Shown here piece by piece: positions 22,762 to 37,512 of a stretch of DNA of 43,506 nucleotides. Under the pieces are notes generated by a model. The model had not been told where the DNA came from. It saw nothing but the letters and a program-made list of their open reading frames with translations, and searched no databases. The DNA lies in contig JAAXUC010000008.1 of assembly GCA_013336225.1 (NCBI GenBank), positions 1-43,506 on the forward strand, written 5' to 3'. Origin of the DNA: Candidatus Moraniibacteriota bacterium. Lineage in GTDB: Bacteria; Patescibacteriota; Minisyncoccia; Moranbacterales; GWC2-37-73. Position 1 is the first letter of the stretch; each line of letters begins with the position of its first letter. Position numbers and translations under genes: made by a program.

Positions 22762-22790
22762 TTCAAATGTTGAAAAACATGTGTATATAT

Positions 22791-22820: not shown

Positions 22821-22825
22821 AATAC

Positions 22826-22854: not shown

Positions 22855-22890
22855 TGATAGTTGAGTTATTTAAAAAACAAAGGTGGTTGA

Positions 22891-23456: not shown

Positions 23457-23476
23457 ATAGTAAGGGAAAATATTAA

Positions 23477-23506
23477 GGATAGAACAGTAATGTTCTATCC
23501 TTTTTT
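23477..23506 (+). terminator. Terminator of the lipoprotein gene
   Basis: 10-bp perfect stem GGATAGAACA / TGTTCTATCC, loop GTAA, then TTTTTT. Confidence 0.9.
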
Positions 23507-23507
23507 C

Positions 23508-23536
23508 TTTACAATTAATTTTTAGTTGGTTATAAT
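23508..23536 (+). promoter_or_regulatory. Promoter of the maturase operon
   Basis: TTTACA, 17-base spacer, TATAAT. The -35 box touches the T-run of the preceding terminator. It should drive 23574-26934. Confidence 0.75.
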
Positions 23537-23573
23537 TAGGTTGTTTTGAATTAATAATATTTTCTCACATCTT

Positions 23574-24125
23574 ATGAAAGCATCTATTGACCTGAAAAAT
23601 AATTCCATATCATTTGAAGTCAGTACCAAGATATATTCCAAGGATATTATCTATAAAGCGTGCTACGTTTTCATTGATAGGATGTATGTCTTGTTGGATA
23701 TCCCTAATAAGAAAGATGTTATTTTGGTTACCTTGAAAGGCAAAGCATCTCTAGTGAAAAAAGACCTTGAAAAAATGGAAGGAGAATTCATGAACGAGTT
23801 GTTGAATTCTTTGGTGCGAGAAAACATCTCAAAGCGTAATCAAAAAGTTTTAGAGCAAATTGTTGGCGGAGCGATGGGAGCAGCTCTGGGTGCTGGCAAT
23901 ATGCAAAATGATGATAAATTGAAATCCGATGGTTGCAATGATAATTGTGATGATAATATTGAATCCAAAGAAATTGAAGATGCTGTAGCAGCACTTCGTA
24001 AAGAGTTGGAAGCTTTTGAAATTGGGGATGATTATGAAAGTGATGCATTGGGAATTAGGGATGTGCAGAAAAGCGATGTTGGCAATAAAAAAAATAAGGA
24101 GAAAAAAAATGAAAAGAAAAAATAG
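23574..24125 (+). CDS. hxsD: HxsD-like protein with a C-terminal extension
   Basis: 183 aa. Residues 1-100 follow the pattern I know from HxsD, the small partner protein of the His-Xaa-Ser radical-SAM system: KIYSKDIIYKACYVFIDRMY (family: YS-x-eaI-x-kAay-x-F-d-x-x-y), VLVTL-like ILVTLKGKA, then GEFMNELLNSLVRENISKRN and a last helix EQIVGGAMGAALG. HxsD has no known catalytic activity; a role in peptide recognition or as chaperone is a guess. The second half (about 110-183) is an acidic, then Lys-rich low-complexity tail (CNDNCDDNIESKEIEDA ... KKNKEKKNEKKK) not usual for HxsD. It overlaps the next gene by 17 bases. Confidence 0.7.
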   Translation: MKASIDLKNNSISFEVSTKIYSKDIIYKACYVFIDRMYVLLDIPNKKDVILVTLKGKASLVKKDLEKMEGEFMNELLNSLVRENISKRNQKVLEQIVGGAMGAALGAGNMQNDDKLKSDGCNDNCDDNIESKEIEDAVAALRKELEAFEIGDDYESDALGIRDVQKSDVGNKKNKEKKNEKKK

Positions 24126-24324
24126 CATCACATTGAAATTGGCTCACGAGCTATATGATCCTCAATCCATTGAAATGGCTGCCGGAGCCTTTGAAGAATT
24201 AGCAGAGATAGCTATTGTAAAAAATAAGCATCATACTGAAATTGAATTTCTCAGCGATGAGGGAGAAAATGTACTCTTTGAATTTGCAAATTACGCTCTA
24301 TTCTTAACCATACAATCAAAATGA
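24109..24324 (+). CDS. Second, short HxsD-like protein
   Basis: 71 aa, started at 24109 because AAGGAG lies 8 bases before this ATG inside the end of the hxsD gene; longer upstream starts would lie deep in that gene. The sequence ITLKLAHELYDPQSIEMAAG then AFEELAEIAIVKNKHHTEIE repeats the HxsD layout (beta strand, LY-x-x-x-S/I helix, strand) in shortened form, so I read it as a paralogue. Its stop overlaps the hxsB start (ATGA), which implies translational coupling and matched amounts. Two HxsD-like proteins side by side suggest a heteromeric partner, or one per maturase. Confidence 0.55.
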   Translation: MKRKNSITLKLAHELYDPQSIEMAAGAFEELAEIAIVKNKHHTEIEFLSDEGENVLFEFANYALFLTIQSK

Positions 24325-25778
24325 TTTCTGATAAAAAAATAAAATATTCAAATTTGGCAAACTTTCGTTTTACCAGACTCAATGGAAAATATTTACTGAC
24401 GACTGACACTGGACGCTGGATTTTTCTTGAGGAGAATGAATTTGAAATGTTTCTTAGTGGTGAGATAAAAAAGAATACTACTCTCTATAAACGCTTGGAT
24501 GAATGTGGTTTTATCAAGACGAAAAAAAATGAAATTGCTGATTATTCCGCAAAATATCTCAAGCTCAATTCTTCTCTTTCACAAGGCCCATCACTTTTTA
24601 TTTTTGTACTTACTTTGCAATGCAATCATCGATGCTTGTATTGTCAGGTTACTCCAGAAAAAGAAGGTGCAACTGGTTTCGACATGAGCAAAGAGGTTGC
24701 TAAAAAATCAGTGGATTTAATTTTCAGATCACCTTCCCCATATATTGGAATAGAATTTCAAGGTGGTGAACCACTTTTGAATTGGTCAGTTTTGCAATAC
24801 ATTGTTAAATATGCCAAGGCAGTCAATAAAACAGAAAAAAAGGAATTGAAAATTTCATTGGTCACGAATCTGACGCGAATGGATGATAATAAATTGGCAT
24901 ATCTCATTAAAGAGGGTGTAAGTATTAGTTGCTCATTTGATGGTCCTGATTATGTGCACAATAAAAATAGGATTTATTTGGATGATAAAAATGGCAGCTA
25001 TAAGCCGTTAGTTAGGAATATGAAAATGGTGCGAGGGGTTATTTCGCAAAAAAAGCAAAAAAGCAAGAAGATTTTTGTGGATGATCTTAATGCGATACTT
25101 ACGACAACCAGGTTTTCTTTGTCATATCCCAAGGAGATTGTTGATGAATATCTTGCAAAAGGCTTCAATAATGTTTTTATCAGACCACTTAGTCCATTTG
25201 GGTTGCAAAGAAAAACGCTTGGCATCATAGGTTATAGCGCCGAGGAGTATATTGCCTTTTATGAAAAAGCGCTGGATTATATTTTAGAATTAAATTTGGG
25301 TGGTACACGTTTTATTGAAAGAACGGCTTATTTGGCATTGAAGCGCGTTTTGAATTATGAAGATTCATCCTATTACGAAATGCGCTCACCTTGTGGAGCT
25401 GGCATTGGTCAGATGGCATTTGATTATAATGGGAATGTGTATACTTGTGACGAGGGACGCATGGCTGAGCGTATGGGACATGATAATTTTAAGCTTGGCA
25501 GTGTTCATAGTGATAAATATGTCGATGTTATTGATAATGAAGTGACAAGAACAATGTGCTTGGGATCATCCCTGGACAATCAAGCAGGCTGCAATGACTG
25601 TGTGTATAAACCTTATTGTGGAATTTGTCCATTAGCCAACTTTATCGAACATGGCACAATTTTTCCTCAAATACTCAACACTGATAAACACAAAATCAAT
25701 AAAGCTCTTTTTGATTATCTTTTCAACAAAATTAGCGACGAAAAATATAAGAGTATTTTCGAAAGCTGGCTAGCATAG
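24321..25778 (+). CDS. hxsB: HxsB-type radical SAM/SPASM maturase
   Basis: 485 aa. The N-terminal part (1-90) has the HxsB look: NFRFTRLNGKYLLTTDTGRW, IFLEENEFEMFLSG. The radical SAM cluster is LQCNHRCLYC (C101, C105, C108). DMSKEVAKKSVDLIFRSPSP and IEFQGGEPLLNW (GGEP at 148-151) are nearly diagnostic for HxsB, as is SCSFDGPDYVHNKNR. The C-terminal SPASM-like region has SPCGAGIGQMAFDYNGNVYT with C-D-E-G-R, then CNDCVYKPYCGICP, for auxiliary Fe-S clusters. In the Hxs system HxsB and HxsC act on the His-Xaa-Ser repeat protein HxsA; the chemistry is not established to my knowledge. It is coupled to both HxsD-like genes upstream and to another radical SAM gene 4 bases downstream. Confidence 0.85.
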   Translation: MISDKKIKYSNLANFRFTRLNGKYLLTTDTGRWIFLEENEFEMFLSGEIKKNTTLYKRLDECGFIKTKKNEIADYSAKYLKLNSSLSQGPSLFIFVLTLQCNHRCLYCQVTPEKEGATGFDMSKEVAKKSVDLIFRSPSPYIGIEFQGGEPLLNWSVLQYIVKYAKAVNKTEKKELKISLVTNLTRMDDNKLAYLIKEGVSISCSFDGPDYVHNKNRIYLDDKNGSYKPLVRNMKMVRGVISQKKQKSKKIFVDDLNAILTTTRFSLSYPKEIVDEYLAKGFNNVFIRPLSPFGLQRKTLGIIGYSAEEYIAFYEKALDYILELNLGGTRFIERTAYLALKRVLNYEDSSYYEMRSPCGAGIGQMAFDYNGNVYTCDEGRMAERMGHDNFKLGSVHSDKYVDVIDNEVTRTMCLGSSLDNQAGCNDCVYKPYCGICPLANFIEHGTIFPQILNTDKHKINKALFDYLFNKISDEKYKSIFESWLA

Positions 25779-25782
25779 TTCT

Positions 25783-26934
25783 ATGAAAAAAAAAACAATT
25801 TTGGATGAAAATATCCAAGCCAACGACGTTCCTCGTGTGCTGAATGTTTTTTTTCCTGGAAGATGTAATCTGCAGTGCAAATATTGCTTTGTGCATAAGG
25901 AGGTGGAATATTTTAATGACATCAATGAGGAATCTATAAGACGAGAAGTTGATATTTTTTTTGATTATCCAGGAAAACAAAAGGCTTTAAGTTTTAATGG
26001 CGGGGAGCCTCTTTTGGAATGGAATCTTATAAAAAAGATATGCGCTTATGCTAAGCAGCAAGCCAGAAAAAAAAAGCTTACTTTGAATGTTTCAATCGTA
26101 ACCAATGGCACCTTGCTTAAAAAGGAGCATGTGGATTTTTTTAGTAAACACAATATTGCTGTCCGCATCAGTATTGATGGAGATAGAAAAACGCATGATA
26201 GCGCAAGACCGTTTAAAGCAAAAAATGGGAAATCAAGTTTTGATGCTATCATGAAAAACATTGATGAAATCGGCATTGCCTCATTGAATTTTTCGGCGTC
26301 TTTAGTTTTTGGACCAAATACAATTACTGACTTGCTTGATAATATAAAATTTCTACAAGCTAAGGGTTTTAAGCAGATTGATTTCTATCCTGAAATATAT
26401 GCAACCTGGAGCGCTCCGGAGCTTAAAAAGCTCAAAATTGAGATGGCAAAAATAAAGCAATATTACATTAATATTTTTGATGAAAATAATAATTTATTTA
26501 AAACTTCCCTGGTTGATGTGACTTTGAATGGTTCTGCTGTTGGCAAGCAAGCGCATTGTGGGAAAATTCAAGCCGATGGTTTGGGGAATTTTTATGCTTG
26601 CGATAAGGTTTTTTCTTTGCCAAAAAAACATAGAGGCAAATATTTGATTGGAGATGTGAAAATAGGGATTGACAATGAAAAAAGAGAGAAGTTGCTGGCA
26701 ACTTTGCGTGAAAAACATGCGGAGAAAAACTTGCTGACTTGCAGTTCTTGCAAATTGAGAAAATATTGCTTTTGTCCTATTGGACAGCATCTTTACTATG
26801 AAAATATGGGAATTGAAAATCTTGCATTTTGGAGGTCTTCGTGTGCAATTTCCAAGATCTTGATTGAGGCTGGTTTGGATGTTGTAAAAAGGCTTAGGTA
26901 TAATGATTTATTTGTGAAACTTAATCGTTTTTAA
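25783..26934 (+). CDS. Radical SAM/SPASM peptide maturase (rSAM 2)
   Basis: 383 aa. The radical SAM motif is GRCNLQCKYCFVHKE (C28, C32, C35), followed by SFNGGEPLLEW (GGEP 73-76), SIVTNGTLL and RISIDGDRKTHDSARPF. The SPASM region has AHCGKIQADGLGNFYACDKV and CSSCKLRKYCFCPIG, the Cys pattern of the anaerobic sulfatase-maturase/peptide-maturase group. These proteins usually modify side chains of a peptide (thioether, C-C cross-link or epimerisation). It sits 4 bases after hxsB in the position expected for a second maturase. In sequence style it is closer to rSAM 3 (29167) than to classical HxsC. The exact reaction is unknown. Confidence 0.85.
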   Translation: MKKKTILDENIQANDVPRVLNVFFPGRCNLQCKYCFVHKEVEYFNDINEESIRREVDIFFDYPGKQKALSFNGGEPLLEWNLIKKICAYAKQQARKKKLTLNVSIVTNGTLLKKEHVDFFSKHNIAVRISIDGDRKTHDSARPFKAKNGKSSFDAIMKNIDEIGIASLNFSASLVFGPNTITDLLDNIKFLQAKGFKQIDFYPEIYATWSAPELKKLKIEMAKIKQYYINIFDENNNLFKTSLVDVTLNGSAVGKQAHCGKIQADGLGNFYACDKVFSLPKKHRGKYLIGDVKIGIDNEKREKLLATLREKHAEKNLLTCSSCKLRKYCFCPIGQHLYYENMGIENLAFWRSSCAISKILIEAGLDVVKRLRYNDLFVKLNRF

Positions 26935-26953
26935 ATATTAGCAATTTTAGTTG

Positions 26954-26982
26954 TTGCGCCTTCATCATTATTGTGGTATTAT
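26954..26982 (+). promoter_or_regulatory. Promoter of the precursor gene
   Basis: TTGCGC, 17-base spacer, TATTAT, with a predicted start near 26989. It would let the precursor be made in greater amount than the maturases. Confidence 0.55.
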
Positions 26983-27030
26983 TTTAATATTGAAATTTGA
27001 TAGTCTGCGTAAGAAGTAATTATAAAAAAT

Positions 27031-27285
27031 ATGAAAATCGAACCTAAAAAGCTTCCCTCAATCAAGAAGAATTTGAAAACATTTCTTTTGAGTGAGGAGG
27101 GAAAAATGACAAAAAAGGATATCGTGAAGATGACCGCAGTTGTTGTTGCAATTGCTGGCGCATTGGGCGGAGTGGCTAAACCGAATGATGCTCTTGGCGC
27201 CAGTTATCACGTTTCACACGGTTCACATGGTTCACACGGTTCACATGGTTCACACGGTTCACACGGTTCCGGTGGATGGTGCTAA
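27031..27285 (+). CDS. HxsA-like RiPP precursor with His-Gly-Ser repeats
   Basis: 84 aa in three parts. Residues 1-25 are a polar leader (KLPSIKKNLKTFLLSEEGK). Residues 26-57 look like a Sec signal peptide: MTKKDIVK, the hydrophobic MTAVVVAIAGALGGVA, then KPNDALGA. The core has one HVS and six HGS triplets (residues 60-80), then GGWC. His-Xaa-Ser repeats are the hallmark of HxsA, the substrate of the HxsB/HxsC radical SAM pair, and an HxsB gene lies upstream, so I call it the substrate of this block. The core DNA (27208-27270) is a 9-base tandem repeat alternating CAC/CAT. A second start at 27106 with a strong SD (GAGGAGGG) would drop the leader and give 59 aa. Core residues open to modification: His, Ser, Trp and the terminal Cys. 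Confidence 0.8.
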   Translation: MKIEPKKLPSIKKNLKTFLLSEEGKMTKKDIVKMTAVVVAIAGALGGVAKPNDALGASYHVSHGSHGSHGSHGSHGSHGSGGWC

Positions 27286-27306
27286 TTTTTTTTAAAATAA
27301 ATTGTC

Positions 27307-28233
27307 ATGGACATTGAAAAAACAAAAAGTATTCTTCTAAAGATTGTTGTTCCAATGTTAGTATTGGTCTTATTTATAGTTGTTGGCTTGGTTGTGTTTG
27401 ATAATATTTCTAAAAAGAAATTAATTGAAAAAGTTCGTCAAGAGAATTTAGCGGTACATGAGGCCGCAAAGATAGCTATTCAGGCTGCTAAAGATGCTAA
27501 ACTAAATAATAGTGGTGAATCTTCAGAGCCAGAAAATGACAATTTATTTCTAGCTAAACTTGGGAAATGTGAAAGTGAGCCAGTTGCTGATTTTAAGCAG
27601 CAATGGAGACAGAAATCGAATGGGTACAGCTTGGTCTATGCTTCTATGTATGCAATTTCAGAAAAAAAAGCTACCTTTTGTGAGGAAGTATTGCTAGATA
27701 GTGATGATATTTCAATTTGTCATGATAGATATAATTTATTGATGAACATGAATAATGGCAATATGGATTGTGGTATTATTAAAGATGGTGAGATGAATGC
27801 TTATTGTGTGGCTTTACACGCTAAGGATGCTGATGTGTGCATAGGATTAGATACTGATCTTGCCAAGAGAAAGTGTAAGGCAATTTTCAGTAAAAATGTC
27901 AATGATTGTGATGGGCTTAATGAGAATGATATGAATATGTGTAAGGGATCCGTATTATTGGGTATGGCTATTTCAAAAGGAGATTTGGCTGGATGTGATG
28001 ATATAAAATATGACAGCCCTAGTGGAAGATTCAACTTGGAATATTGCAAGTTGATATTGTCGCCAGATCCAAAAAATGAATGGAGCAAGTTTTATGCGAG
28101 TGATGTATGTTATGAAAAATATGCAAGTTCAGTGGCTGGTGAGAAAAAGGACACTTCTTTTTGTGAAAAAATACCGTTAAAGATGTTGGATAATAAGATT
28201 GCATATGAATCTTGTATGGAAAGTGTTAAATAG
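27307..28233 (+). CDS. Membrane-anchored Cys-rich protein, unknown
   Basis: 308 aa. One membrane helix near the N-terminus (about residues 11-31, VVPMLVLVLFIVVGLVVF), then a charged helical stretch (35-75) and a Cys-rich region. In that region pairs of Cys recur every 10-25 residues in loosely repeated units (TFCEEVLL...ICHDRYN, DVCIGLDTDLAKRKCKAIF, NDCDGLNENDMNMCKGS, AGCDDIKYD...YCKLIL). The pattern of short helical Cys-paired repeats suggests an extracellular domain held by disulfides. No family recognised. It follows the precursor by 21 bases with no terminator between, so both are probably co-transcribed up to the terminator at 28260. It could be an immunity, presentation or binding partner of the peptide, which is inference from position only. 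Confidence 0.7.
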   Translation: MDIEKTKSILLKIVVPMLVLVLFIVVGLVVFDNISKKKLIEKVRQENLAVHEAAKIAIQAAKDAKLNNSGESSEPENDNLFLAKLGKCESEPVADFKQQWRQKSNGYSLVYASMYAISEKKATFCEEVLLDSDDISICHDRYNLLMNMNNGNMDCGIIKDGEMNAYCVALHAKDADVCIGLDTDLAKRKCKAIFSKNVNDCDGLNENDMNMCKGSVLLGMAISKGDLAGCDDIKYDSPSGRFNLEYCKLILSPDPKNEWSKFYASDVCYEKYASSVAGEKKDTSFCEKIPLKMLDNKIAYESCMESVK

Positions 28234-28259
28234 ATTTTTCAGTATCAACTAGGACCGTG

Positions 28260-28295
28260 GCAAGCAATTATTGTCCTTAATTGCTTGCTTTTTTT
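28260..28295 (+). terminator. Terminator of the precursor unit
   Basis: 11-bp perfect stem GCAAGCAATTA / TAATTGCTTGC, 7-base loop, then a run of T. Confidence 0.88.
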
Positions 28296-28323
28296 ATTGG
28301 TCATTATTATGACTCTGCTGTGC

Positions 28324-28353
28324 TTGCCTTATTCGTCTGGTACAAGGTATAAT
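28324..28353 (+). promoter_or_regulatory. Promoter of the tailoring operon
   Basis: TTGCCT, 18-base spacer, TATAAT. The ATG of the next gene begins 9 bases after the -10 hexamer, so the mRNA is leaderless or nearly so. Confidence 0.65.
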
Positions 28354-28362
28354 ATTTTCTAT

Positions 28363-29142
28363 ATGAATGATTCAGAGGCCAAGGAAACAATACGATTACT
28401 AGTTAATGAATATGGAGCCAAGGAAGACTTGGCAACTTTTTTTTGTGGAATTGTCGAGACTATTGCTACAAAAAAAGATGGAGAATTCGAATTTTCTTTT
28501 GTTGAAAATGAGAAAAAGATTAGATTTAATCATTTTTATTTTTTTAATAATGGATTGACAGCAATCGAAAAGGGAAAACGTTGGGACAAGAGAATCGAAC
28601 AAATAAAAAAAGCATTGCAAGATATTGAAAGAATATTTTGTCTTGGCATGGATTATGTTTTTTTTGATAAAATAATTAATTTTGCCAAATTAAATGGTTT
28701 ATTGCCAGTGCATTTTGGAATTGAATATGATGCTACGCTAGGAATGAGGATTAAAATATATCTTGGAATTAATGAAAAAATGATTGATCTGAGGGGATTT
28801 TGCAAGACTCTTAATGTAAGTTTTAAGCTGATCATGCTTGCAACAAAAAATCTCCCTCTTGATACTATTGCTTTTGATTTTTCACCTGGAAAACTTCCAA
28901 CACTTAAATTGTATCCGATTATATCTAAGCACAAGGGTTTATTGCTTAGAATTGGGGCAAATGGTAATATTGAGTCAGCCAAGATCTGGCAACGTTTTCC
29001 AGTAGGCATTAAGGTTGGAAAATATGCTGAAAGTGAATTTTTAATTGCTCCATCCTTTTTGCATGAAAATATGATGCTGAATAAATTTAAATTTTCATAT
29101 ATTTGTCTAGAGAAAGGCAAAAAGAGTCTTTATTGGCGATAA
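28363..29142 (+). CDS. Possible ABBA-fold peptide prenyltransferase (tentative)
   Basis: 259 aa from the ATG at 28363. The frame is open further upstream to 28285, but that includes the promoter and the preceding terminator. Begins MNDSEAKETIRLLVNEYG. Strand-like segments recur: FNHFYFFNN, LPVHFGIEYD, GMRIKIYLGI, TIAFDFSPGKLPTLKLYPII, GLLLRIGA. From memory, the order of the motifs GI-(D/E), a (K/R)-x-(K/H)-IY/I strand, and FDF-x-x-GK-x-x-(L/I)-KLY resembles cyanobactin prenyltransferases of the LynF/PagF type (about 290 aa, ABBA barrel), which prenylate Tyr, Ser, Thr or Trp in peptides. The core has Tyr, Ser, Trp and Cys as possible acceptors. This is a weak, pattern-level match; otherwise the protein is unknown. 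It heads the operon with rSAM 3, YcaO and the rest. Confidence 0.45.
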   Translation: MNDSEAKETIRLLVNEYGAKEDLATFFCGIVETIATKKDGEFEFSFVENEKKIRFNHFYFFNNGLTAIEKGKRWDKRIEQIKKALQDIERIFCLGMDYVFFDKIINFAKLNGLLPVHFGIEYDATLGMRIKIYLGINEKMIDLRGFCKTLNVSFKLIMLATKNLPLDTIAFDFSPGKLPTLKLYPIISKHKGLLLRIGANGNIESAKIWQRFPVGIKVGKYAESEFLIAPSFLHENMMLNKFKFSYICLEKGKKSLYWR

Positions 29143-29166
29143 GCATGTAATTTTTTTGAACTATAT

Positions 29167-30255
29167 ATGAATAAGGAAATTTTTGAGATGAAATTAAGTA
29201 TAAATACTGCTTGTGTTTTTAATTGTAAATATTGTTTTGTTGACAAGAAAAAGGTGGATGTGCCGATGAATATTGAAATAGCAAAAAAATCAGCAAATTT
29301 GTTCATCACTTCTCCTGGCAAAGATAAGATATTAAAAATATATGGCGGTGAGCCTCTTATGAACTTTGCTCTTGTGCAAGAAATTGCTCCATATATTACA
29401 GCACTAGCTAAGAAAAACGATAAAAATCTTTCGCTTAGCTTGTGTACTAATGCGGCATTACTTAATCAGCAGCATATTGAATTTTTTAAAAGATATAAAT
29501 TTCAATTAGCTGTAAGCTTTGATGGGAGAAGGCAAACGAATGATAAATATAGACAATTTAAAAATGGAATGGGCACTCACGACATAATAGTGAGAAATAT
29601 TAAAAAATTGATAAAGGAAATTACAACACGTAATTTTGCGGTCAATATGTCAGTCACGCCTTCGGAGGCAAAGAACATCTTTAAAAATTTTTCATACATA
29701 CTAAGTCTTGGGGCTGACACTGTTAATATTGAGCCCATATATGGCTTCGAGAAGTGGAGTGCTGCTAAGTTGAAGATATTCAGTGATCAGATGAGATTAG
29801 TTAACGCCTTTATTTTTAAAGAGATAATGAATAAAAATTTTATATTCTCCACAACCATTGATAGAGAACTTCGTTATAAGACATTAAGTAGATGCAGAGA
29901 GGGTGATTGCCTGTTCGGACAACTTTCAGAAATCTATCCTAATGGGGATATGACTTTCTCATCATTTTTCTTGAACTTACCTGTTGAGATGCATGATAAG
30001 TATGTTATAGGTAATGTTAACAGTGGCCTCTTTAAAGAGCAATACAGTAAATGTGTTTTTGATAATAAAAGCAATAAATGCATAAAATGCAGGGAAGCAT
30101 ATTTCGATGCTTCTGATTTAAGTCTTAGCTCTGGCCCAGTGAATGTTAGAAATAATATGTCAATTTTAATGTCAGAGGAAATAGAAAGAATGGCAAAGGA
30201 GAATGAAGTATTTAATGAATATATCCTGGAAGCCAAGAAGCACATTTGTTTCTGA
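29167..30255 (+). CDS. Radical SAM peptide maturase (rSAM 3)
   Basis: 362 aa. Cluster motif NTACVFNCKYCFVDKKKV (C16, C20, C23), IYGGEPLMNF (GGEP 60-63), LCTNAALLNQQH and AVSFDGRRQTNDKYRQF. It resembles rSAM 2 in order and wording (CKYCFV, SPGKDK, GGEPL), so the two are probably paralogues. The C-terminal auxiliary region is reduced: SRCREGDCLFGQLSEIYPNG and NKCIKCREAYFDA, where a full SPASM would have two further Cys groups, so it may hold one auxiliary cluster (twitch-like). No SD is obvious; the gene starts 24 bases after the preceding one. Substrate is presumed to be the HGS-repeat peptide. Confidence 0.82.
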   Translation: MNKEIFEMKLSINTACVFNCKYCFVDKKKVDVPMNIEIAKKSANLFITSPGKDKILKIYGGEPLMNFALVQEIAPYITALAKKNDKNLSLSLCTNAALLNQQHIEFFKRYKFQLAVSFDGRRQTNDKYRQFKNGMGTHDIIVRNIKKLIKEITTRNFAVNMSVTPSEAKNIFKNFSYILSLGADTVNIEPIYGFEKWSAAKLKIFSDQMRLVNAFIFKEIMNKNFIFSTTIDRELRYKTLSRCREGDCLFGQLSEIYPNGDMTFSSFFLNLPVEMHDKYVIGNVNSGLFKEQYSKCVFDNKSNKCIKCREAYFDASDLSLSSGPVNVRNNMSILMSEEIERMAKENEVFNEYILEAKKHICF

Positions 30256-31589
30256 GCTTAATTGATTTTAATTTTGTGGGATACGTTTTTAAAAAAAATT
30301 CAAAAAAGTATTTTAAAGGTGCTGAACGTATTTGCGATCCTTGTGAAACAAGGATGCGCGTGCTTGATCGTATTAAAAAATCTGGACTTCCGGTCTTGAT
30401 TAAGGTTGAGCGCATTGATCACCTTGATAACTTGGGCATCCCTGTGTATGCTGCTGCGCATTCGGATATTTTTGGAAATTGTGGTAAGCCAAGCTGGGGC
30501 AAAGGTATAACTGAAGATTTGGCCTATGTTAGTGCTCTGATGGAACGTGTGGAGCGCTACAGTGCTTCTGACGTGAGTGGCGCTGAGGATATTGTGAGGC
30601 GGAGATTTATTGATTTCAAGCAGGGTGATGCTGTTTCCAGGTGGGATTTGGTTCCTTGCAATTTGCAACGTAAATTATACACAAAAGCTGAAGTTGATAG
30701 GCAGGAATTGCTTTGGGCGAAATGTTTTTCTTTTACAAAAAATAGGAATGTTTTTATTCCGGTTAACATGGTCTATTTTTTGCCAGCAGAAGAATATGAT
30801 GATTTCTCTTATACGACTGGACTCGCCTCTGGCAATAGTATTGAGGAGGCAATTCTGCATGCATTGTGTGAGGTAATTGAGAGGCATGTCGAGGAAGTTG
30901 CTTATAACAATAAGGTAAAATTTCCAACCATCGACCTGGCAACAATCAAAAATAAAGAAGTTAAGAATCTCATAAATGCATTTATTTCCAATGATTTCAA
31001 TTTGCAATTTACGAGAATGGACACTGATTTTAATGTTTCAATCATAAGAGCTTTTGCTTATGAGAAAAAAGGTCCATATGCCAATACCTATTCCCAATAT
31101 ACAAGTATTGGAGTTCATCCAAATGAGAATGTGGCTATCATAAGGGCACTGACTGAAATTGCACAAGCCAGAGCCTGCAACTATTATCAGATTAAAAATA
31201 AGACTCAAAGCATTGAGATGGTGGAGGTGATACCTGATGACATTATGCATTATTTTTCTGACATTATGGACAGGGAATGCGTTATTTCATTGGATGATGT
31301 GCAAAGTATAAGTAGGAATGACATCTCCTCGGAGATAAGAAATATTCTCAAGGCTCTGAAGAAAAAAAAATGTGAAGTGATCTTTAAGGATTTGACATTG
31401 CCAAAGCTTGAGATTCCAGTGGTGCGTGTTATTGTGAGAGGGCTGCAGCCTGGAAATTTGGGGGTTGGAGTTATTGATTTGAAGCATGATGTGGCCAGAA
31501 TTTCTGAAAATCTTACTGCCTACCAAAAGCTTCTTAATGAGATTGTAGGTGTGAAGCATTTAAAATGCGTGATACAATCTAAGGATTAA
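30246..31589 (+). CDS. YcaO-domain protein (ATP-dependent peptide backbone modification)
   Basis: 447 aa if TTG 30246 is the start; GTG 30276 is an alternative. Both keep the typical YcaO opening KKYFKGAERICDPCETRMRV; the first ATG (30354) would lose it. ATP-binding motifs: WGKGITEDLAYVSALMERVE (S96, E100, E103, R104), SIEEAILHALCEVIERH (E209, E212) and the RALTEIAQARA box. YcaO enzymes activate backbone amides with ATP to make azolines, thioamides or amidines. The C-terminus (KCVIQSKD) lacks the PxPxP end of azoline-forming cyclodehydratases. No E1-like partner, TfuA or flavin dehydrogenase gene is in the block, so the product is open: azoline at Ser or Cys, thioamide or amidine. It overlaps rSAM 3 by up to 10 bases. 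Confidence 0.88.
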   Translation: MFLSLIDFNFVGYVFKKNSKKYFKGAERICDPCETRMRVLDRIKKSGLPVLIKVERIDHLDNLGIPVYAAAHSDIFGNCGKPSWGKGITEDLAYVSALMERVERYSASDVSGAEDIVRRRFIDFKQGDAVSRWDLVPCNLQRKLYTKAEVDRQELLWAKCFSFTKNRNVFIPVNMVYFLPAEEYDDFSYTTGLASGNSIEEAILHALCEVIERHVEEVAYNNKVKFPTIDLATIKNKEVKNLINAFISNDFNLQFTRMDTDFNVSIIRAFAYEKKGPYANTYSQYTSIGVHPNENVAIIRALTEIAQARACNYYQIKNKTQSIEMVEVIPDDIMHYFSDIMDRECVISLDDVQSISRNDISSEIRNILKALKKKKCEVIFKDLTLPKLEIPVVRVIVRGLQPGNLGVGVIDLKHDVARISENLTAYQKLLNEIVGVKHLKCVIQSKD

Positions 31590-31606
31590 AAAATAGACTA
31601 AAATAT

Positions 31607-32503
31607 ATGAAAAAAGCTGATATTAAAACTGGATTTTTGTGCAACAATAATTGTCTTTTTTGTGTGCAAGGCCCAGAGAAAAAGGCGTATGGGAACAAGA
31701 ATACTAAAGACTTAAAGGTTATCATTAAAAGAGCGGCCAAGGATTGCGATATTGTTGTTTTTACTGGTGGAGAGCCAACAATTAGGAGGGATCTAGTGGA
31801 GCTTGTGGCATATGCTAAGAAGTTGGGATTTAAAACGATTCAAATTCAATCAAATGGTAGAATGTTTGCCTATGAAAAATTTTGTCATGAAATTATCGCT
31901 GCTGGCGCCAATGAATTTGGATTGGCTTTGCATGGACATACAGCTAAATTGCATGATTATCTCACGGGGGCAGAGAGTTTTCGTCAAACAGTGGCAGGGA
32001 TCATGAATTTGAAAAAAATGAAACAAGCTGTCATCACCAATACGGTGATTACGAAATCAAATTATCGTCATTTGCCTGAAATCGCAAAGCTTTTAGTGAG
32101 CCTGGATGTGAACAGTTTTCAATTTGCATTCGTGCATGCCTTAGGGGCTGCAGGCAAGAATTTCGATAAAATTGTTCCACGCATGAGTATGGTTGCGCCG
32201 TATGCAAAAAAAGCTCTGGATGTCGGCAAGCATTTTAAGAAAACAGCTACAACGGAAGCGATGCCTTATTGCATGCTTGCTGGATATGAAGAATGCATAG
32301 CTGAGGCATCAATGCCAATGATGAAGATTTTTGATCAGAATCATGTTGTTGCAAACTATACGAAAGCAAGAATTGTGGAAGGGAAGGCAAAAGGTCTTGG
32401 TTGTGTAAGGTGTATGTATAATAATATTTGTGAGGGACCATGGCGCGAATATCCACAAGCTTTCGGTTGGGATGAATTTAAGCCGATATTAAAAGAAAAA
32501 TAA
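31607..32503 (+). CDS. Radical SAM protein, HxsC/MoaA-like layout (rSAM 4)
   Basis: 298 aa. Cluster motif GFLCNNNCLFCVQGPEKK (C12, C16, C19), VVFTGGEPTIRRDL (GGEP 54-57), IQIQSNGRMFAYEKF and LALHGHTAKLHDYLTG. It ends with a compact auxiliary motif GCVRCMYNNICEGPWREYPQ and AFGWDEFKPI (C-x-x-C-x5-C). The order 'SNGR-x-F', 'H-x-x-x-x-HD', 'F-x-QT-x-x-G', then a Cys-rich end, is the one I know from HxsC and related short radical SAM proteins. It is therefore one of three candidates for the HxsC role (with 32506 and 35522). It is separated from the next gene by 2 bases. Confidence 0.8.
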   Translation: MKKADIKTGFLCNNNCLFCVQGPEKKAYGNKNTKDLKVIIKRAAKDCDIVVFTGGEPTIRRDLVELVAYAKKLGFKTIQIQSNGRMFAYEKFCHEIIAAGANEFGLALHGHTAKLHDYLTGAESFRQTVAGIMNLKKMKQAVITNTVITKSNYRHLPEIAKLLVSLDVNSFQFAFVHALGAAGKNFDKIVPRMSMVAPYAKKALDVGKHFKKTATTEAMPYCMLAGYEECIAEASMPMMKIFDQNHVVANYTKARIVEGKAKGLGCVRCMYNNICEGPWREYPQAFGWDEFKPILKEK

Positions 32504-32505
32504 GC

Positions 32506-33645
32506 ATGTTATTAGTGGATAAGAAAACCATCAAAAATAAGGTTGCTGAGCAAAAAAGGCACTGGGTGCGTATCAATCGTGCATGTAACAATAATTGTCT
32601 GTTTTGTCTTGATCGTGAAAATCAAAATGGTTCCATTTTTGAAATAAAAGAAGTGGTGGCTGATCTTGAAGTTGGTCTTGAAAAGGGTGCGAAACGCGTG
32701 ATTATTTCTGGTGGAGACCCCACTGTTCATCCGAGATTAGCTGCCATAATAAAAAAAGCTAAGGCGCTTGGTTACGAGCATGTGCAAATAATCACTAATG
32801 GAAGAATGTTAGCATATGAAAAGTTTGCCGCAGAACTTAAGCAAGCAGGCTTGGATGAGGTTACTTTGTCGCTGCACAGTCATATTGAAAAAGATTTTGA
32901 AAAATTGACTGGAGTCAGTGGTAGCTATAAACAGGCGCTTAGTGGCTTGTTAAACGCTCAAAAGCAGGGATTTATAGTGAGTGTTGATATTGTGATCAAT
33001 AAGATAAATTACAAAAAACTCAAGGAAACTTTGCAATTTTACATAAAATTAGGTGTCAGTGAATTTGATCTTTTGTATCCAGTACCCTTTGGCAGTGCTT
33101 GGGAAAATAGGGATGAACTTTTCTTTGATCCAGAAAAAGCTCAAAAATATTTGCAAGAAGCTTTTGCTCTTTCAAAAAATAAAAATCTTTTCATTTGGAC
33201 CAACAGGATGCCGGCGCAATTTTTGGAGGGGTCAGAAGATCTCATTCAAAATCCTGTTAAATTGCATGATGAGGTGCGAGGAATGTTGCCAGAATTAATG
33301 GCTCATGTGAAAAATGGGAGACAAATGGGATGCAAAGGAGAGCGATGTCAGCATTGTTTCATGCAAGGCTTCTGCAAAGATCTGGATGAACTTTTGAAAA
33401 ATAAAAAACTGCCTGGCAAGAAGAATCCATTATGCGTAAATGCCAAAGAAACAAAAGAAAAATCACTCGAATTTAAATTTAATAGCAAATTTACACTTGA
33501 AAAATTTACAGATTTTTATATTAAGAATAGATATTTTGTAAAAAGTTTGCGTTGTGCTAAGTGTAAGTATGAAAATATTTGTGATGGAGCTTGGATTGAG
33601 GATGTGAGGAGATATGGCTTCAGATTTTTAAATGTCAGGAAATAG
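32506..33645 (+). CDS. Radical SAM protein, HxsC/MoaA-like layout (rSAM 5)
   Basis: 379 aa. Cluster motif INRACNNNCLFCLDRENQ (C27, C31, C34), IISGGDPTVHPRL (GGDP 69-72 in place of GGEP), ITNGRMLAYEKFAAELKQAG and LSLHSHIEKDFEKLTGVSGS. It is a clear paralogue of rSAM 4 in the first 230 residues. It then has an additional central segment with GCKGERCQHCFMQGFCKDLD and the same type of end, LRCAKCKYENICDGAWIEDV. It may thus hold two auxiliary Fe-S clusters against one in rSAM 4. Tight spacing (2 bases) to rSAM 4 suggests that the two work together or on the same peptide. Confidence 0.8.
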   Translation: MLLVDKKTIKNKVAEQKRHWVRINRACNNNCLFCLDRENQNGSIFEIKEVVADLEVGLEKGAKRVIISGGDPTVHPRLAAIIKKAKALGYEHVQIITNGRMLAYEKFAAELKQAGLDEVTLSLHSHIEKDFEKLTGVSGSYKQALSGLLNAQKQGFIVSVDIVINKINYKKLKETLQFYIKLGVSEFDLLYPVPFGSAWENRDELFFDPEKAQKYLQEAFALSKNKNLFIWTNRMPAQFLEGSEDLIQNPVKLHDEVRGMLPELMAHVKNGRQMGCKGERCQHCFMQGFCKDLDELLKNKKLPGKKNPLCVNAKETKEKSLEFKFNSKFTLEKFTDFYIKNRYFVKSLRCAKCKYENICDGAWIEDVRRYGFRFLNVRK

Positions 33646-33703
33646 ATTTAAGTAAATTGATTTACATATCGATATCATAATATCTTTATTTTAATGGAAA
33701 AAT

Positions 33704-35506
33704 ATGTTTGAAATTTTCTGTGGATTTTCTGGGGAAACAGATCAAAAATTGCTAGGAAAGATGATGCATGCCTCAATGGGGAAGAAGATATATAAAGAAG
33801 AAATCTTTACTGAAAATGGCATAAATATTGGGGCCGGATATCTTATCATCTCAAAATTAAATAAGGGTGATGAGGTTTTGTATGATAATGATGGCATTCA
33901 CGCTGTTTTTAGTGGTGAAATGTATAATTTCACTGAGCTTAAGCTTGATTTGAAAAAAAAAGGATATGAATTTTCTATCAATTCAAATGCTGAGATGATT
34001 GCATTTTTATATAGAGAATATGGAGCAGATTTTATTGTTAAGATAAATGGTGCTTTTGCTATTATTTTGTGGGATAATGCCCAGAGAAAGTTATTTTTAT
34101 TTCGAGATAGGTTGGGCGAGAAAAATATCTATTACCTTCTAAGAGGGAAACGGATTATTTTTAGTTCCGAGATGAGGATTATCTTGGAGGCTCCTTTTTA
34201 TAAGAAAGAGATAGATTTTGAATCTCTGCATCATTATTTTTCTTTCAGGAGCATTCCACAACCACGATCCATTTTTAAGGATATACAATATGTGCTGCCT
34301 GGTGAATTGTTGATGTTTAAGGATGGCATTTTAAAGAAAAAGAAATACTGGAATTGTACTTTTGGTGATAGGAAGAATGTTGATGAAAAAGTTTTGATAC
34401 CTAAGATGTCGGACTTGTTTTCCACTGCAATTAAGGATAGGATTTGCAATGAAATTCAACCAAAAGTTTTACTGAGTGGGGGGTTGGACTCCAGCTCTAT
34501 TGTGGCTACCCTTTCCGGATTATCAAAAAAAGCACTGAAAACATTCCATCTTAATTATGGCAAAAAAATTAATGCTAAATTGGCTGACGTTGTGGCTGCA
34601 CGAAAAGTTGCTAAATTATACAAAACTGATCATCAAGAGTATTTAATGGGTCCCAAGGAGATCATGCGGAATATAAAAAAATCCATTGAAGTTTTCGATG
34701 AGCCGCTTGGAGTTTTTGTTCCATTCTCTTTCTTCGCTAATGTTGTTGATGGTGATGGTGATGTTGTTTTTTCTGGTAATGGCGGAGATGAGGTTTTTGG
34801 TGGTTATGACTACCATCGCACAGTAGAGGGTCAATCTTCTGACACTGAGTTATTGCAAAAATATATATTTAATTTTTATGATTTCAATGAAAGCGAGAAA
34901 CAAGAAATTTACAGTGATTCTTTAAGGAGAAAAATGAAAAATTTTAATTCTATTGCTATTTGGAAAGAATATTTTCAAGAAACAACATCAAGAAAATATC
35001 CGGATAAAATTTTTGAAATAGATATTAAAAATATCGTGCCTGAGCAAACTCTTTATATTAGTAGGGAGGTGGGCACACATTTTTCATTTCAGCCAAGAGC
35101 ACCTTTTTTAGACTATCGCTTAATTGAACTAGCAGCATCCTTAAAAGGCGAAATTAAAGTTAAAAACAACAGAAACAAACATCTCTTGAAGGAATTAATA
35201 AAGAATTGCCTTCCGTATGATATTATTAATAGACCCAAAGATGTGTTTACATTGAGTGCTGATCAATGCTTGATGGATAATATGAAAAAAAATATTAAAG
35301 ATATTCTTGCCAAGGAAAGATTGGAAAAGCATGGTTTTTTAAATATTGAAGTGGTGAATGAATTGGTAAGGGATTATTATACTTCAGGTGTTAAAAAAGA
35401 ACAGCCGAAACTTCGCAATAGTGCGCATTTGGCTGACAAGATCTTTATTTTGATGATATTTCAACTTTGGTGGGAGCATCATTTCGATGAGAATAATTTA
35501 AAATAA
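33704..35506 (+). CDS. Asparagine-synthetase-like amide ligase with a degraded glutaminase site
   Basis: 600 aa, two domains as in AsnB. The C-terminal synthetase half has the ATP pyrophosphatase loop VLLSGGLDSSSIVATL (S258-G-G-L-D-S263) and FSGNGGDEVFGGYDYHR, so ATP activation of a carboxylate looks possible. The N-terminal half keeps the fold (FAIILWDNAQRKLFLFRDRL, GEKNIYYL) but not the catalysis. The nucleophile Cys must be residue 2 (MCGI); here the start is MFEIFCGFSGE with Cys at 6. The usual RRLSI box reads AGYLIISK, NGEIYN reads SGEMYN, and the Asp of S-D-x-E is Ala (NSNAEM). It should not use glutamine. AsnB-like proteins without glutaminase act in lasso-peptide macrolactam formation (McjC), so amide or isopeptide bond formation on the peptide is my inference. 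Confidence 0.82.
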   Translation: MFEIFCGFSGETDQKLLGKMMHASMGKKIYKEEIFTENGINIGAGYLIISKLNKGDEVLYDNDGIHAVFSGEMYNFTELKLDLKKKGYEFSINSNAEMIAFLYREYGADFIVKINGAFAIILWDNAQRKLFLFRDRLGEKNIYYLLRGKRIIFSSEMRIILEAPFYKKEIDFESLHHYFSFRSIPQPRSIFKDIQYVLPGELLMFKDGILKKKKYWNCTFGDRKNVDEKVLIPKMSDLFSTAIKDRICNEIQPKVLLSGGLDSSSIVATLSGLSKKALKTFHLNYGKKINAKLADVVAARKVAKLYKTDHQEYLMGPKEIMRNIKKSIEVFDEPLGVFVPFSFFANVVDGDGDVVFSGNGGDEVFGGYDYHRTVEGQSSDTELLQKYIFNFYDFNESEKQEIYSDSLRRKMKNFNSIAIWKEYFQETTSRKYPDKIFEIDIKNIVPEQTLYISREVGTHFSFQPRAPFLDYRLIELAASLKGEIKVKNNRNKHLLKELIKNCLPYDIINRPKDVFTLSADQCLMDNMKKNIKDILAKERLEKHGFLNIEVVNELVRDYYTSGVKKEQPKLRNSAHLADKIFILMIFQLWWEHHFDENNLK

Positions 35507-35521
35507 TCCTGAATAGATATT

Positions 35522-36457
35522 ATGGCTAAATTAGGATACATACAAGTAACTAGGCAGTGCAACCAAAAATGCATCATCTGTTCAAATCCTCCGACTGAAC
35601 AGCTGTTGTCCTTATTGGCTGCTAAAAGAAAAGTTGATGAAATAAAAAATGAAGGTGGGGAAGGGATCATCATCACTGGGGGAGAACCAACCCTATATAA
35701 ATATCTGCCAGAATTGATTGCCTATGCCTACAAGGAGGGTATTTTCCCTAGAATCATTACAAACGGTCAAAAGCTTGCCAGTTGGCGATATGCCAAAGCA
35801 CTCAATGCTGCTGGCCTCAGACATCTTCATGTTTCAATCTATTCTTGCAGGGATGATGTGCAAGCGGCCATTTCGCAAAACGCAGATTCACTGAAAAATA
35901 TCACTAAAGCATTAGATAATCTGAAAAGGCTTGGGGATATGACTGTAAATATGAATATTGCCATCAGCAAGCTTAATGCTGGTCATCTATCAGAAACTGT
36001 CAGCTGGGTGGTTGAAAAATATCCCATGGTGCAGCATTTTGTCTTTAACAACCTTGATCCGCACATGAACAGGGCTTCTGAAAATCCCGAGGTGGTTCCG
36101 CGTATGCATGATTTTGAATTGGAATTGCATAAAAGTTTGAATTTTTTGGAAAAGAATGGAAAAACATTTCGTGTTGAGCGAGTACCTCTTTGCTATTTGG
36201 CAGGTTTTGAATTTGCCTCCACTGAAACACGCAAAATAGTTAAAAAAGAAGCCAGAACTGTTTATTTTTTGGATACAAAGGAAAAACTCACTCAAAGCAC
36301 TTGGGAGAGCGAAAAGGCTCCTTGGTGCAATGCTTGCGAACTTAACGACATTTGTGCTGGACTCTTTGGATGGGGTAGATTTTATTCTATTGAAGAATTA
36401 AGTCCAGTCTTTATTGATAAAAATGAAATTATTAAAAAAATAAAAGATGAAAAGTGA
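35522..36457 (+). CDS. Radical SAM protein, HxsC-like (rSAM 6)
   Basis: 311 aa. Cluster motif QVTRQCNQKCIICSNPPTEQ (C13, C17, C20), IIITGGEPTLYKYLPEL (GGEP 53-56), IITNGQKLASWRYAKALNAA and LHVSIYSCRDDVQAAISQ. It ends with APWCNACELNDICAGLFGWG and F-Y-S-I-E-E-L-S-P-V-F, which mirrors the HxsC ending (CE-x-C-x-x-R-x-x-CGGFF-x-x...I-x-P). CSNPPTE after the cluster is also close to the HxsC 'CSQPP'. Of the three short radical SAM genes in this operon it is the best HxsC candidate. It overlaps the peptidase gene by 11 bases. Confidence 0.8.
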   Translation: MAKLGYIQVTRQCNQKCIICSNPPTEQLLSLLAAKRKVDEIKNEGGEGIIITGGEPTLYKYLPELIAYAYKEGIFPRIITNGQKLASWRYAKALNAAGLRHLHVSIYSCRDDVQAAISQNADSLKNITKALDNLKRLGDMTVNMNIAISKLNAGHLSETVSWVVEKYPMVQHFVFNNLDPHMNRASENPEVVPRMHDFELELHKSLNFLEKNGKTFRVERVPLCYLAGFEFASTETRKIVKKEARTVYFLDTKEKLTQSTWESEKAPWCNACELNDICAGLFGWGRFYSIEELSPVFIDKNEIIKKIKDEK

Positions 36458-37427
36458 AATTTTAAATGCAGTTTTCATTTTATGCATGGGTATTTTGAGT
36501 TTTTTTGTGATCAGGGAGGATATCAAGCATAAGAAAATAAAAAATAAATTCGTCTTGTTTGGTTTCTTGGCTGGATCTATGTTGTTTTTACTTGGATTTC
36601 TGCTGGGATTTGTTCAGCCTGAATATTTACGCAGCGTGTTTTTAAATTCGCTGGTTGCGCTTGTTGTCGCCTATATTTTTTGGCTCACTTCCTTCTGGCC
36701 AGCAGGGGACGCAAAACTGTTTGTTTTGTTTTCTTTTTTGCTGCCACTGCATTATTATTGGAAAAGTTATCTGCCAATCTTTCCATCCCTAATTCTCTTA
36801 GTAAATATCTTTGTGTGTGCATATGTTTTTTTGCTCGTGCAAGGCATTGTTCATCTTGGATGGCTTATACGCAAGAAAGACAAGTCATTGCCAGGCTTGA
36901 TTTCCAGTGGCAATGCTCTATTTTCGCCTAAAGTGCTGATATCTTTTTTTAAAAAAATCAATCTTAAAGTTTTAGGTAGGAGCGTGTTGATGATAATTGG
37001 AATGTTTTGTTTTTCATATTATGTTTTTGATTTGAAGCATGTTGGTGTATACAGCTTAATTAAGACATCGATCGTGACCAGCATGATCTGGCTCGTGTCC
37101 TTATGGATAATCAGGAAGTATATAATTGATAATGAAACATATGTCATAGCTATAGAGGAGCTGTTTCCGGGCGCTTTAATTGCAGTGAAGCAAGAAGATC
37201 ATGATGTCTTTTCATCAGAACTTTTGAAAAAAATTGGACCGATGCGCGCAGATGGTGTTGATGCTAGGCAAGTAGCAATAATTCTTGAAGATTCAAAAGC
37301 GAGAGGCATTAAGTCTATTGCCTTGCATGAAAACATTCCATTTTCTCCCTTGATTGTGGTTGGAGGCTTGGTTACTGTGATTTTAAGTGACAATGTGGTG
37401 CAGCTTATCAAGAATATGTTCACGTGA
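36447..37427 (+). CDS. A24-type (prepilin peptidase-like) membrane aspartyl protease
   Basis: 326 aa, about seven membrane helices. The two catalytic Asp are in IREDIKHKKIKNK (D25; family D-x-x-x-x-x-IPN) and SFWPAGDAKLFVLF (D88; GxGD-type motif reading AGDAK). The N-terminal zinc-Cys domain of PilD is missing, as in the short TadV/CpaA branch. Beyond the membrane core there is a soluble C-terminal part (about 225-326) with FPGALIAVKQEDHD, ADGVDARQVAIILEDSKARG and HENIPFSPLIVVGG, found in other CPR members. Its position at the end of the radical SAM operon, overlapping rSAM 6, suggests that it trims the leader of the peptide or another exported product rather than a pilin; no pilin gene is near. 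Confidence 0.75.
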   Translation: MKSEILNAVFILCMGILSFFVIREDIKHKKIKNKFVLFGFLAGSMLFLLGFLLGFVQPEYLRSVFLNSLVALVVAYIFWLTSFWPAGDAKLFVLFSFLLPLHYYWKSYLPIFPSLILLVNIFVCAYVFLLVQGIVHLGWLIRKKDKSLPGLISSGNALFSPKVLISFFKKINLKVLGRSVLMIIGMFCFSYYVFDLKHVGVYSLIKTSIVTSMIWLVSLWIIRKYIIDNETYVIAIEELFPGALIAVKQEDHDVFSSELLKKIGPMRADGVDARQVAIILEDSKARGIKSIALHENIPFSPLIVVGGLVTVILSDNVVQLIKNMFT

Positions 37428-37473
37428 GCATGGTTTCCCTGAAATAATATTTTCAATTCAAGTTATATTGTGT

Positions 37474-37479
37474 TATAAT
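37474..37479 (+). promoter_or_regulatory. Possible -10 box of the secreted Cys-rich gene
   Basis: TATAAT preceded by TG at -2; the -35 (TTTCAA) at the right distance is poor. It would give a short leader of about 27 bases. Confidence 0.4.
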
Positions 37480-37512
37480 CAAATGAGATAGGTATCTTTA
37501 TTTTTTTAAAAT

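Follow-up and report, generated by a model that had tools for sequence, protein, structure and literature searches.

Why would a bacterium with a genome of about one megabase keep six radical S-adenosylmethionine (SAM) enzymes side by side? Patescibacteria are reduced, probably host-dependent cells that are thought to make almost no specialised products. The stretch analysed here (43,506 nucleotides, contig JAAXUC010000008.1 of Candidatus Moraniibacteriota bacterium, assembly GCA_013336225.1; hereafter, the window) forms contig 4 of a genome of 1.11 Mb with a completeness rated at 100%, and its positions 23574–37427 hold the six enzymes in a cluster of 14 genes. An earlier reading of the letters (the original prediction) took this cluster for an enlarged His-Xaa-Ser (Hxs) peptide-modification system. 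We consider it probable that the operon is an expanded Hxs pathway of Paceibacteria for a ribosomally synthesised and post-translationally modified peptide (RiPP), with one heavily modified and probably exported ribosomal peptide as its product. Directly established here are the gene content and its conservation, the anatomy of the precursor, the predicted prenyltransferase fold, the active-site states, and the covariation of enzymes with the precursor tail.

All 14 genes lie on the plus strand and form one tightly packed operon, with intergenic gaps of −62 to +129 bases (<60 for most, with overlaps, as the original prediction had described). The operon encodes HxsD, a second HxsD-like protein, the radical SAM maturase HxsB, a precursor with HGS repeats, five further radical SAM proteins, a YcaO protein, an AsnB-like ligase, an ABBA-fold prenyltransferase, an A24 prepilin-peptidase-like protein, and a membrane-anchored protein (Table 1). 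The five further radical SAM proteins, predicted without subdivision, can now be sorted into two PapB-like (rS1 and rS2) and three HxsC-like proteins (rS3 to rS5); all six cluster proteins pass Pfam Radical_SAM and retain both CxxxCxxC and GG[E/D]P. Half of the Radical_SAM matches of the genome (6 of 12) fall inside these 14 kb of 1.11 Mb. This clustering is not chance, and the set also recurs in related genomes.

HxsB and HxsD connect the cluster to the described Hxs systems. Both satisfy curated equivalog models (TIGR03978 and TIGR03976), and the second small protein passes the HxsD-like model NF038315. The original prediction had counted a failure of the first two models on 24321 and 23574 against itself, and no such failure occurred. 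For the HxsD-like gene, we prefer the start at 24109, picked by comparison with 71-aa relatives. The structural model of HxsD has an alpha/beta core at high confidence that is weakly Rpb11/Pcc1-like in its best Foldseek matches (E ~0.01). Canonical Hxs loci, on Aeromonas salmonicida plasmid 4 (L108; gene order D-B-C-A only) and Paraburkholderia pSYMBR3459 (L110), have one each of HxsA, HxsB, HxsC, and HxsD, and the Novosphingobium and Mesorhizobium loci have HxsB-HxsC. The Aeromonas and Paraburkholderia loci share with our cluster the HxsD and HxsB models, an HxS-repeat precursor in the operon, and an HxsC-like radical SAM protein. However, they have two radical SAM proteins, the number originally given for Hxs, against six here, and none of their genes in the stretch shown is annotated as A24, YcaO, AsnB-like, or prenyltransferase; the Novosphingobium and Mesorhizobium stretches likewise show no annotated A24 gene.

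Phylogenetic analysis of HxsB separates canonical Hxs, together with two Patescibacteria loci that have two radical SAM proteins (G402 and G473), from all expanded loci with 100/100 support; row G815 and one long row were left out of this tree, and the same split is found with them in. This indicates that the expanded system is a distinct branch and not a local accident. The rS3, rS4, and rS5 proteins miss the HxsC equivalog TIGR03977, so we refer to them as HxsC-like rather than HxsC. The nearest models are NCBIfam HxsC4 (NF038332) for rS3 and HxsA3 (NF038309) and HxsA4 (NF038313) for the precursor, leader included, in each case with scores below cut-off. HxsA3, HxsA4, and HxsC4 are single-family models, and some parts of the system have thus been catalogued already. 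In the open literature searched, we found no description of the whole expanded Hxs system and no paper on Moranbacteria with radical SAM proteins. The combination, originally taken as undescribed, is not entirely new, since NCBIfam already has models for HxsA3, HxsA4, HxsC4, and the HxsD-like protein, although several of them stay below cut-off here.

The precursor, of the HxsA type, consists of a leader (KKNLKTFLLSEEG), a hydrophobic stretch, an AxA-like site, the core HVS(HGS)6, and the tail GGWC, with seven H-x-S in all. Its best models are HxsA3 (36.5 bits, cut-off 65) and HxsA4 (33.2, cut-off 55); a relative's precursor in L075 reaches 61.3 against the cut-off of 65. We looked for a second HxsA and found none, so the genome has one precursor of the HxS kind, in line with the original view that a single short peptide is the focus of the enzymes. 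Precursors of relatives mostly carry 4–56 HxS units. The leader residues K-K, F-L, and E-E-G stay the same in all or nearly all of the aligned precursors, and 23/23 have an AxA-like site for signal peptidase N-terminal to the core; the genome encodes a signal peptidase I (window 14737–15270). A search of the leader against a plasmid collection gave no match. The C-termini vary: some precursors end in GGWC or GSWC, others in GSW, GQW, ASW, SSY, NSY, or longer ends. The HxS proteins of L047 and L087 (521 and 555 aa) have a large, mutually similar domain C-terminal to the repeats.

To place the cluster among relatives, we searched for HxsB in genomes of the same family, order, and class and compared the neighbourhoods of the matches. 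HxsB was found in 5/19 genomes of the family (this one included), 12/131 of the order, and 19/384 of the class; the expanded type is present in about 5% of the class genomes drawn. In a phylum-wide draw of 380 genomes, three pass the HxsB cut-off, all from the same class. Fourteen loci cover both the HxsD/HxsB end and the A24 end (the HxsB end of G384 is only partial), and all 14 contain HxsD, HxsB, an HxS precursor, an rS3 orthologue (at least 53% identity), and an A24 protein. The precursor is present wherever its region is covered, which bears out the predicted linkage of these genes to an HxS peptide. Gene order is permuted in two loci (G476 and G681), in which radical SAM genes were left uncounted. 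Countable loci hold 4–15 radical SAM ORFs (15 in G349, 14 in G711, 13 in G575, 12 in G430; masked stretches bear on the low number in G653), so the six of our cluster are modest. A radical SAM gene is found in a position like that of rS5 in related loci, and some single ORFs contain multiple radical SAM motifs (G430, G663). These two genomes have giant fused radical SAM ORFs (L077 and L084; 691, 733, 774, and 1089 aa), of which some show CxxxCxxC repeatedly, as though consecutive maturases had become joined.

Judged by sequence comparison, the constant parts of the system are HxsD, HxsB, the precursor, rS3, and the A24 protein, usually with the second small HxsD-like protein. Among the relatives' loci, there is an AsnB-like match in none and a YcaO-like protein in one (G476, 25% identical). 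YcaO and the AsnB-like protein are thus a local addition, and we rejected them as defining parts. Co-occurrence in other Patescibacteria, a check set by the original prediction, is found for the core, while YcaO and the AsnB-like protein lack close counterparts and the gene order is not always kept. Sister clusters carry other genes: carbamoyltransferases, a glycosyltransferase, aminotransferases of classes I, III, IV, and V, and pyruvoyl arginine decarboxylase-like, TsaD/YrdC-like, ATP-grasp, agmatine-deiminase-like, and diphthamide-synthase-like proteins. Several of the largest clusters also share a recurrent family with a GYPxCC motif (L081 2364–3305 and proteins of ~300–400 aa in L082/L097 and L091; a DUF483 match in one), which may be one more core tailoring enzyme. 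Such a constant core with exchangeable tailoring is what a RiPP family under diversifying selection would usually show.

This variability also bears on two other explanations. In one, a standard Hxs set (HxsA, B, C-like, D) merely lies beside unrelated radical SAM, YcaO, and AsnB-like genes that serve another product, as the near absence of YcaO and AsnB-like genes from relatives and the D-B-C-A content of Aeromonas-type loci might suggest. We regard this as very unlikely, as the gaps are of a few bases throughout the operon, rS3 and A24 accompany HxsB in 14/14 both-end loci (the two permuted ones included), the tail type covaries with rS1 and the prenyltransferase (see below), and the genome has no second precursor of the HxS kind. 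In the other, the peptide would serve as the scaffold for assembly and release of a small molecule, in the manner of peptide-scaffolded pathways. The repeats are conserved and multiplied up to 56-fold, which would be needless for a disposable carrier, and the window shows no dedicated peptide-aminoacyl-tRNA ligase, so we find a scaffold role extremely unlikely, even with many tailoring enzymes per peptide and with aminotransferases, arginine decarboxylase-like, and ATP-grasp proteins in relatives.

The strongest evidence that rS1, rS2, and the prenyltransferase may act on the HxsA peptide is their covariation with its last four residues. New here is the observation that the C-terminal G[GS]WC tail of the precursor tracks rS1 and that rS2 and the prenyltransferase follow the tail. 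The rS1 gene (25783) was found in 10/10 loci with a G[GS]WC-ending precursor and in 0/10 other loci (Fisher p = 1.1e-5, with kinship ignored). Phylogenetically independent pairs, three on well-supported branches and five on all branches, were concordant in every case. A close relative, G380, with an HxsB 81% identical to ours, has neither rS1 nor the G[GS]WC tail. The rS1 proteins form one group in the tree (SH-aLRT 95) with one extra paralogue within it, and the clade of rS2 (29167), the partner of the prenyltransferase, is confined to GGWC-type loci. The ABBA family is present in 8/8 GGWC loci scored and in 0/7 others scored. However, a strict rule linking prenyltransferase and GGWC is softened by a possible distant exception in G653, whose tail HGQW is still Trp-ended: one of its proteins, missed by the ABBA profile, matches Trp_DMAT weakly (E = 0.011). 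The best-scoring model for both rS1 and rS2 is that of the PapB-type ranthipeptide maturases, and GGWC appears to be the target of rS1 and rS2. Altogether, this points to a division of labour in which HxsB, rS3, and the HxsD proteins would modify the repeats, and rS1, rS2, and the prenyltransferase the tail.

The prenyltransferase itself was recognised by structure. The ORF that opens with TTG at 28285, in which the ATG at 28363 is the likelier start, has no sequence-family match in Pfam or NCBIfam and was originally called a possible prenyltransferase. Foldseek matches its AlphaFold model (pLDDT 88, pTM 0.86) to CymD, PagF, and PatF at E values of 4e-7 to 4e-6, and VIA-align gives an ABBA fold with Z 17.9 over 246/259 residues, with PagF, PatF, and LimF among the matches. 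As modelled, the product of 28363–29142 is an ABBA prenyltransferase fold along its full length, which strengthens the earlier call. Residues K182, Y184, R196, and Y257 are invariant across nine homologues, in agreement with the KxY diphosphate-binding motifs typical of the ABBA family, and a polyprenyl synthase gene is encoded in the genome. The cyanobactin prenyltransferases PatF, PagF, and LimF and other ABBA proteins thus offer a whole-length fold match (Z 16–18) in a RiPP setting, but 28363–29142 is only 8–17% identical to these proteins and has an HxS peptide and radical SAM partners.

The two local additions, YcaO and the AsnB-like protein, were confirmed by their Pfam and TIGRFAM models. 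For YcaO, the nearest solved structure is the archaeal MJ1094 (100 bits, versus 63 for MusD and 54 for LynD), and the McrA-glycine thioamidation model TIGR03266, likewise near, is missed (198.4 bits, cut-off 365); its possible reactions include Gly thioamidation and Ser cyclodehydration. The AsnB-like protein passes TIGR01536, yet its glutaminase residues are replaced: in alignment with E. coli AsnB, Cys2 is Phe, the Arg of HERLSI is Tyr, Asn74 is Ser, and Asp98 is Asn, while the ATP/synthetase motifs LLSGGLDSS and SGNGGDEVFGGY are intact. The lost glutaminase site suggests a lactam or amide ligase. By analogy to lasso cyclases, the amine that the protein couples to a carboxylate should not be ammonia released from glutamine. 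Lasso-peptide cyclases and beta-lactam synthetase likewise have the AsnB fold, a lost glutaminase nucleophile, and intact ATP motifs. In contrast to lasso systems, however, no lasso protease or leader-binding partner was seen at the cluster, the lasso cyclase model scores 122.9 against 525, and the best matches are asparagine/amidotransferase models.

The last gene of the operon encodes the A24 protein. Its Pfam PF01478 score lies to either side of the cut-off, depending on whether the whole protein or the genome search is scored (Table 1), so the A24 call of the original prediction is borderline by profile, although the catalytic Asp25 and Asp88 are invariant in the 13 homologues aligned. The gene is distinct from the other A24 gene of the genome, on contig 23. 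The leader motif FLxSEEG resembles, in what we take as a hint only, the Flp prepeptide; it has no profile support, and the Flp_Fap profile finds in the genome only a 13-bit stretch outside the leader. As no Pfam pilin family matched, we dropped the leader as a Flp/Tad pilin. In one lineage (L014, L082, L084, L086, L089, L090), PilT-, PilC-, pilin-, and PilD-like genes lie directly upstream of HxsD. This adjacency is a second hint of a tie to prepilin processing.

The A24 protein raises a third alternative, in which HxsA would be a surface protein, rich in His and either metal-binding or structural, and a minor pilin-like subunit of a pilus-like system to which the A24 protein belongs, and the enzymes lightly modify HxsA or another surface molecule such as a pilin or glycan. 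In its favour are the A24 protein in 14/14 both-end loci, the several loci directly behind type IV pilus genes, the very long His/Ser repeats (up to 56 HxS), and the sister-cluster glycosyltransferase, carbamoyltransferase, and aminotransferase genes, which recall glycan pathways. We judge it unlikely, because the leader has no Flp/pilin profile match, the window and its nearest relatives show no linkage to type IV pilus genes, and the covariation of a four-residue tail with specific enzymes is a better fit to substrate recognition.

For the expanded Hxs RiPP pathway, we infer each reaction, the reaction order, export, and the cleavage sites as follows. HxsA would be made with its leader, hydrophobic stretch, AxA-like site, and core (step 1). 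HxsB and rS3, with HxsD and the HxsD-like protein, would then act on the HxS repeats (step 2). In triceptides (made by XncB, OscB, MscB, HaaB, and YhhB), an aromatic residue at i is crosslinked to the beta-carbon at i+2: MscB makes a C4(Phe)-Cbeta(Ser) bond, whereas HaaB and ScaB make C2(His)-Cbeta(Ala) (PMC11002830). The HxS motif fits this geometry as His(i)-Ser(i+2), with HxsB/HxsC-type enzymes on long tandem repeats instead. Our leading guess for the product of HxsB/rS3 is therefore a series of tandem His-Ser cyclophanes: a His ring joined to the Ser beta-carbon two residues on, as by the F-x-S and H-x-A three-residue-cyclophane enzymes. In step 3, rS1, rS2, and the ABBA prenyltransferase may modify the GGWC tail, for example by a Cys crosslink and Trp prenylation. 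Peculiar to this genome would be step 4, in which YcaO would introduce a thioamide at Gly or an azoline at Ser, and the AsnB-like protein with its dead glutaminase site an amide or macrolactam, possibly at the C-terminus, as the core has no Asp, Glu, or Lys. Lastly (step 5), the peptide would be exported by Sec and its leader removed by the dedicated A24 peptidase (after EEG), signal peptidase I (at AxA), or both. Candidate roles of the product are a weapon, metal binding, or an epibiont surface coat.

Several findings weigh against this interpretation. With only three to five independent contrasts, the association of rS1 with the tail is not significant on the contrasts alone. The HxsC-like proteins and the precursor miss curated cut-offs. 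The literature searched holds no characterised Hxs product, so the HxS chemistry is assigned by analogy. For HxsD, no PqqD-type winged-helix leader-binding domain (RiPP recognition element, RRE) is among the Foldseek matches listed for its model, which gives that role no support. The leader has no match to Pfam Flp or other pilin families, which leaves A24 cleavage to co-occurrence, and it is without the hydrophobic residues directly after Gly that usual prepilins carry. Exporter and immunity genes were not identified. The membrane-anchored protein at 27307–28233 is a candidate immunity or partner protein, with a homologue close to HxsA in seven further loci; homologues or look-alikes occur in many loci (e.g., G711 6947, G430 6286).

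Table 1. Genes of the expanded Hxs operon and extent of the surrounding island, in window coordinates.
Feature	Coordinates	Strand	Basis
HxsD (TIGR03976)	23574..24125	+	56.9 bits, cut-off 50
Second HxsD-like protein (NF038315)	24109..24324	+	55.1 bits, cut-off 41, for longer reading 24064–24321
HxsB radical SAM maturase (TIGR03978)	24321..25778	+	493 bits, cut-off 370; CNHRCLYC, GGEP, C-terminal Cys intact
rS1, PapB-like radical SAM	25783..26934	+	NF047865 184.7 bits, below cut-off 340
HxsA-type precursor	27031..27285	+	Sequence; HxsA3/HxsA4 models below cut-off
Single-TM (transmembrane), Cys-containing extracytoplasmic protein beside precursor	27307..28233	+	No family match
ABBA-fold prenyltransferase (predicted)	28363..29142	+	AlphaFold model and structural matches; ORF opens TTG 28285
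rS2, PapB-like radical SAM	29167..30255	+	NF047865 145.4 bits, below cut-off 340
YcaO protein	30246..31589	+	PF02624 199 bits, cut-off 25.7
rS3, HxsC/HxsC4-like radical SAM	31607..32503	+	NF038332 183 (cut-off 500), TIGR03977 112 (cut-off 267.9)
rS4, HxsC-like radical SAM	32506..33645	+	NF038332 122, TIGR03977 101 bits, below cut-offs
AsnB-like amide/lactam ligase (putative), degenerate glutaminase domain	33704..35506	+	TIGR01536 287.9 bits, cut-off 267.1
rS5, HxsC-like radical SAM, directly 5' of A24 gene	35522..36457	+	TIGR03977 96 bits, below cut-off
A24 prepilin-peptidase-like membrane protein, last gene	36447..37427	+	Pfam A24 23.5 (whole protein) / 26.8 (genome search) bits, cut-off 26.5
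Island between ftsZ and nrdR	22763..38858	.	Homology comparison with same-genus genome G395

The cluster lies on a genomic island. In the same-genus genome G395, ftsZ and nrdR are separated by ~1.4 kb, in which a single unrelated gene lies, and homology of the window to G395 ends after ftsZ (22762) and picks up again at 38859. The cluster has a G+C content of 35%, versus 38–39% in the flanks, and is found in 0/5 other genomes of the same genus. In another genus, it lies beside ftsZ in G381 and upstream of nrdR in G384. Its history is either one of repeated loss or one of exchange at one site. Between cluster and nrdR, 37513–38661 encodes a Cys-rich secreted protein; relatives of this protein occur near ftsZ in a cluster-less same-genus genome (L123), which places it outside the cluster. 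After nrdD, 42028–42309 encodes a separate 93-aa protein with zinc-finger-like Cys pairs, whose tail shares 85% identity across 34 residues with the glycyl-radical C-terminus of NrdD. It resembles a spare glycyl-radical part for anaerobic ribonucleotide reductase, compare YfiD for pyruvate formate-lyase, and a protein of this type also adjoins nrdD in G384 and G395.

This strongly expanded variant of Hxs is new, with component families partly catalogued in NCBIfam. In a more far-reaching reading, which we hold to be less likely than not, Paceibacteria would have a class of exported peptides made by clusters of up to 15 radical SAM ORFs, with long tandem His-x-Ser crosslinked chains, a separately modified, prenylated GGWC terminus, and release by a dedicated A24 peptidase. 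The literature searched has no description of A24-type leader removal for RiPPs and no paper on prepilin peptidase in RiPP work; our analysis suggests a role for a prepilin-type peptidase in RiPP maturation. The fixed core and variable tailoring, with tail-matched enzymes, provide ready enzyme-substrate pairs for studying Hxs chemistry. The retention of 6–15 radical SAM enzymes in a 0.6–1.1 Mb genome on behalf of one or two peptides implies that their role is strong and probably interspecies. Organisms thought to be without such chemistry thus seem to harbour a family of heavily modified peptides that is yet to be explored.

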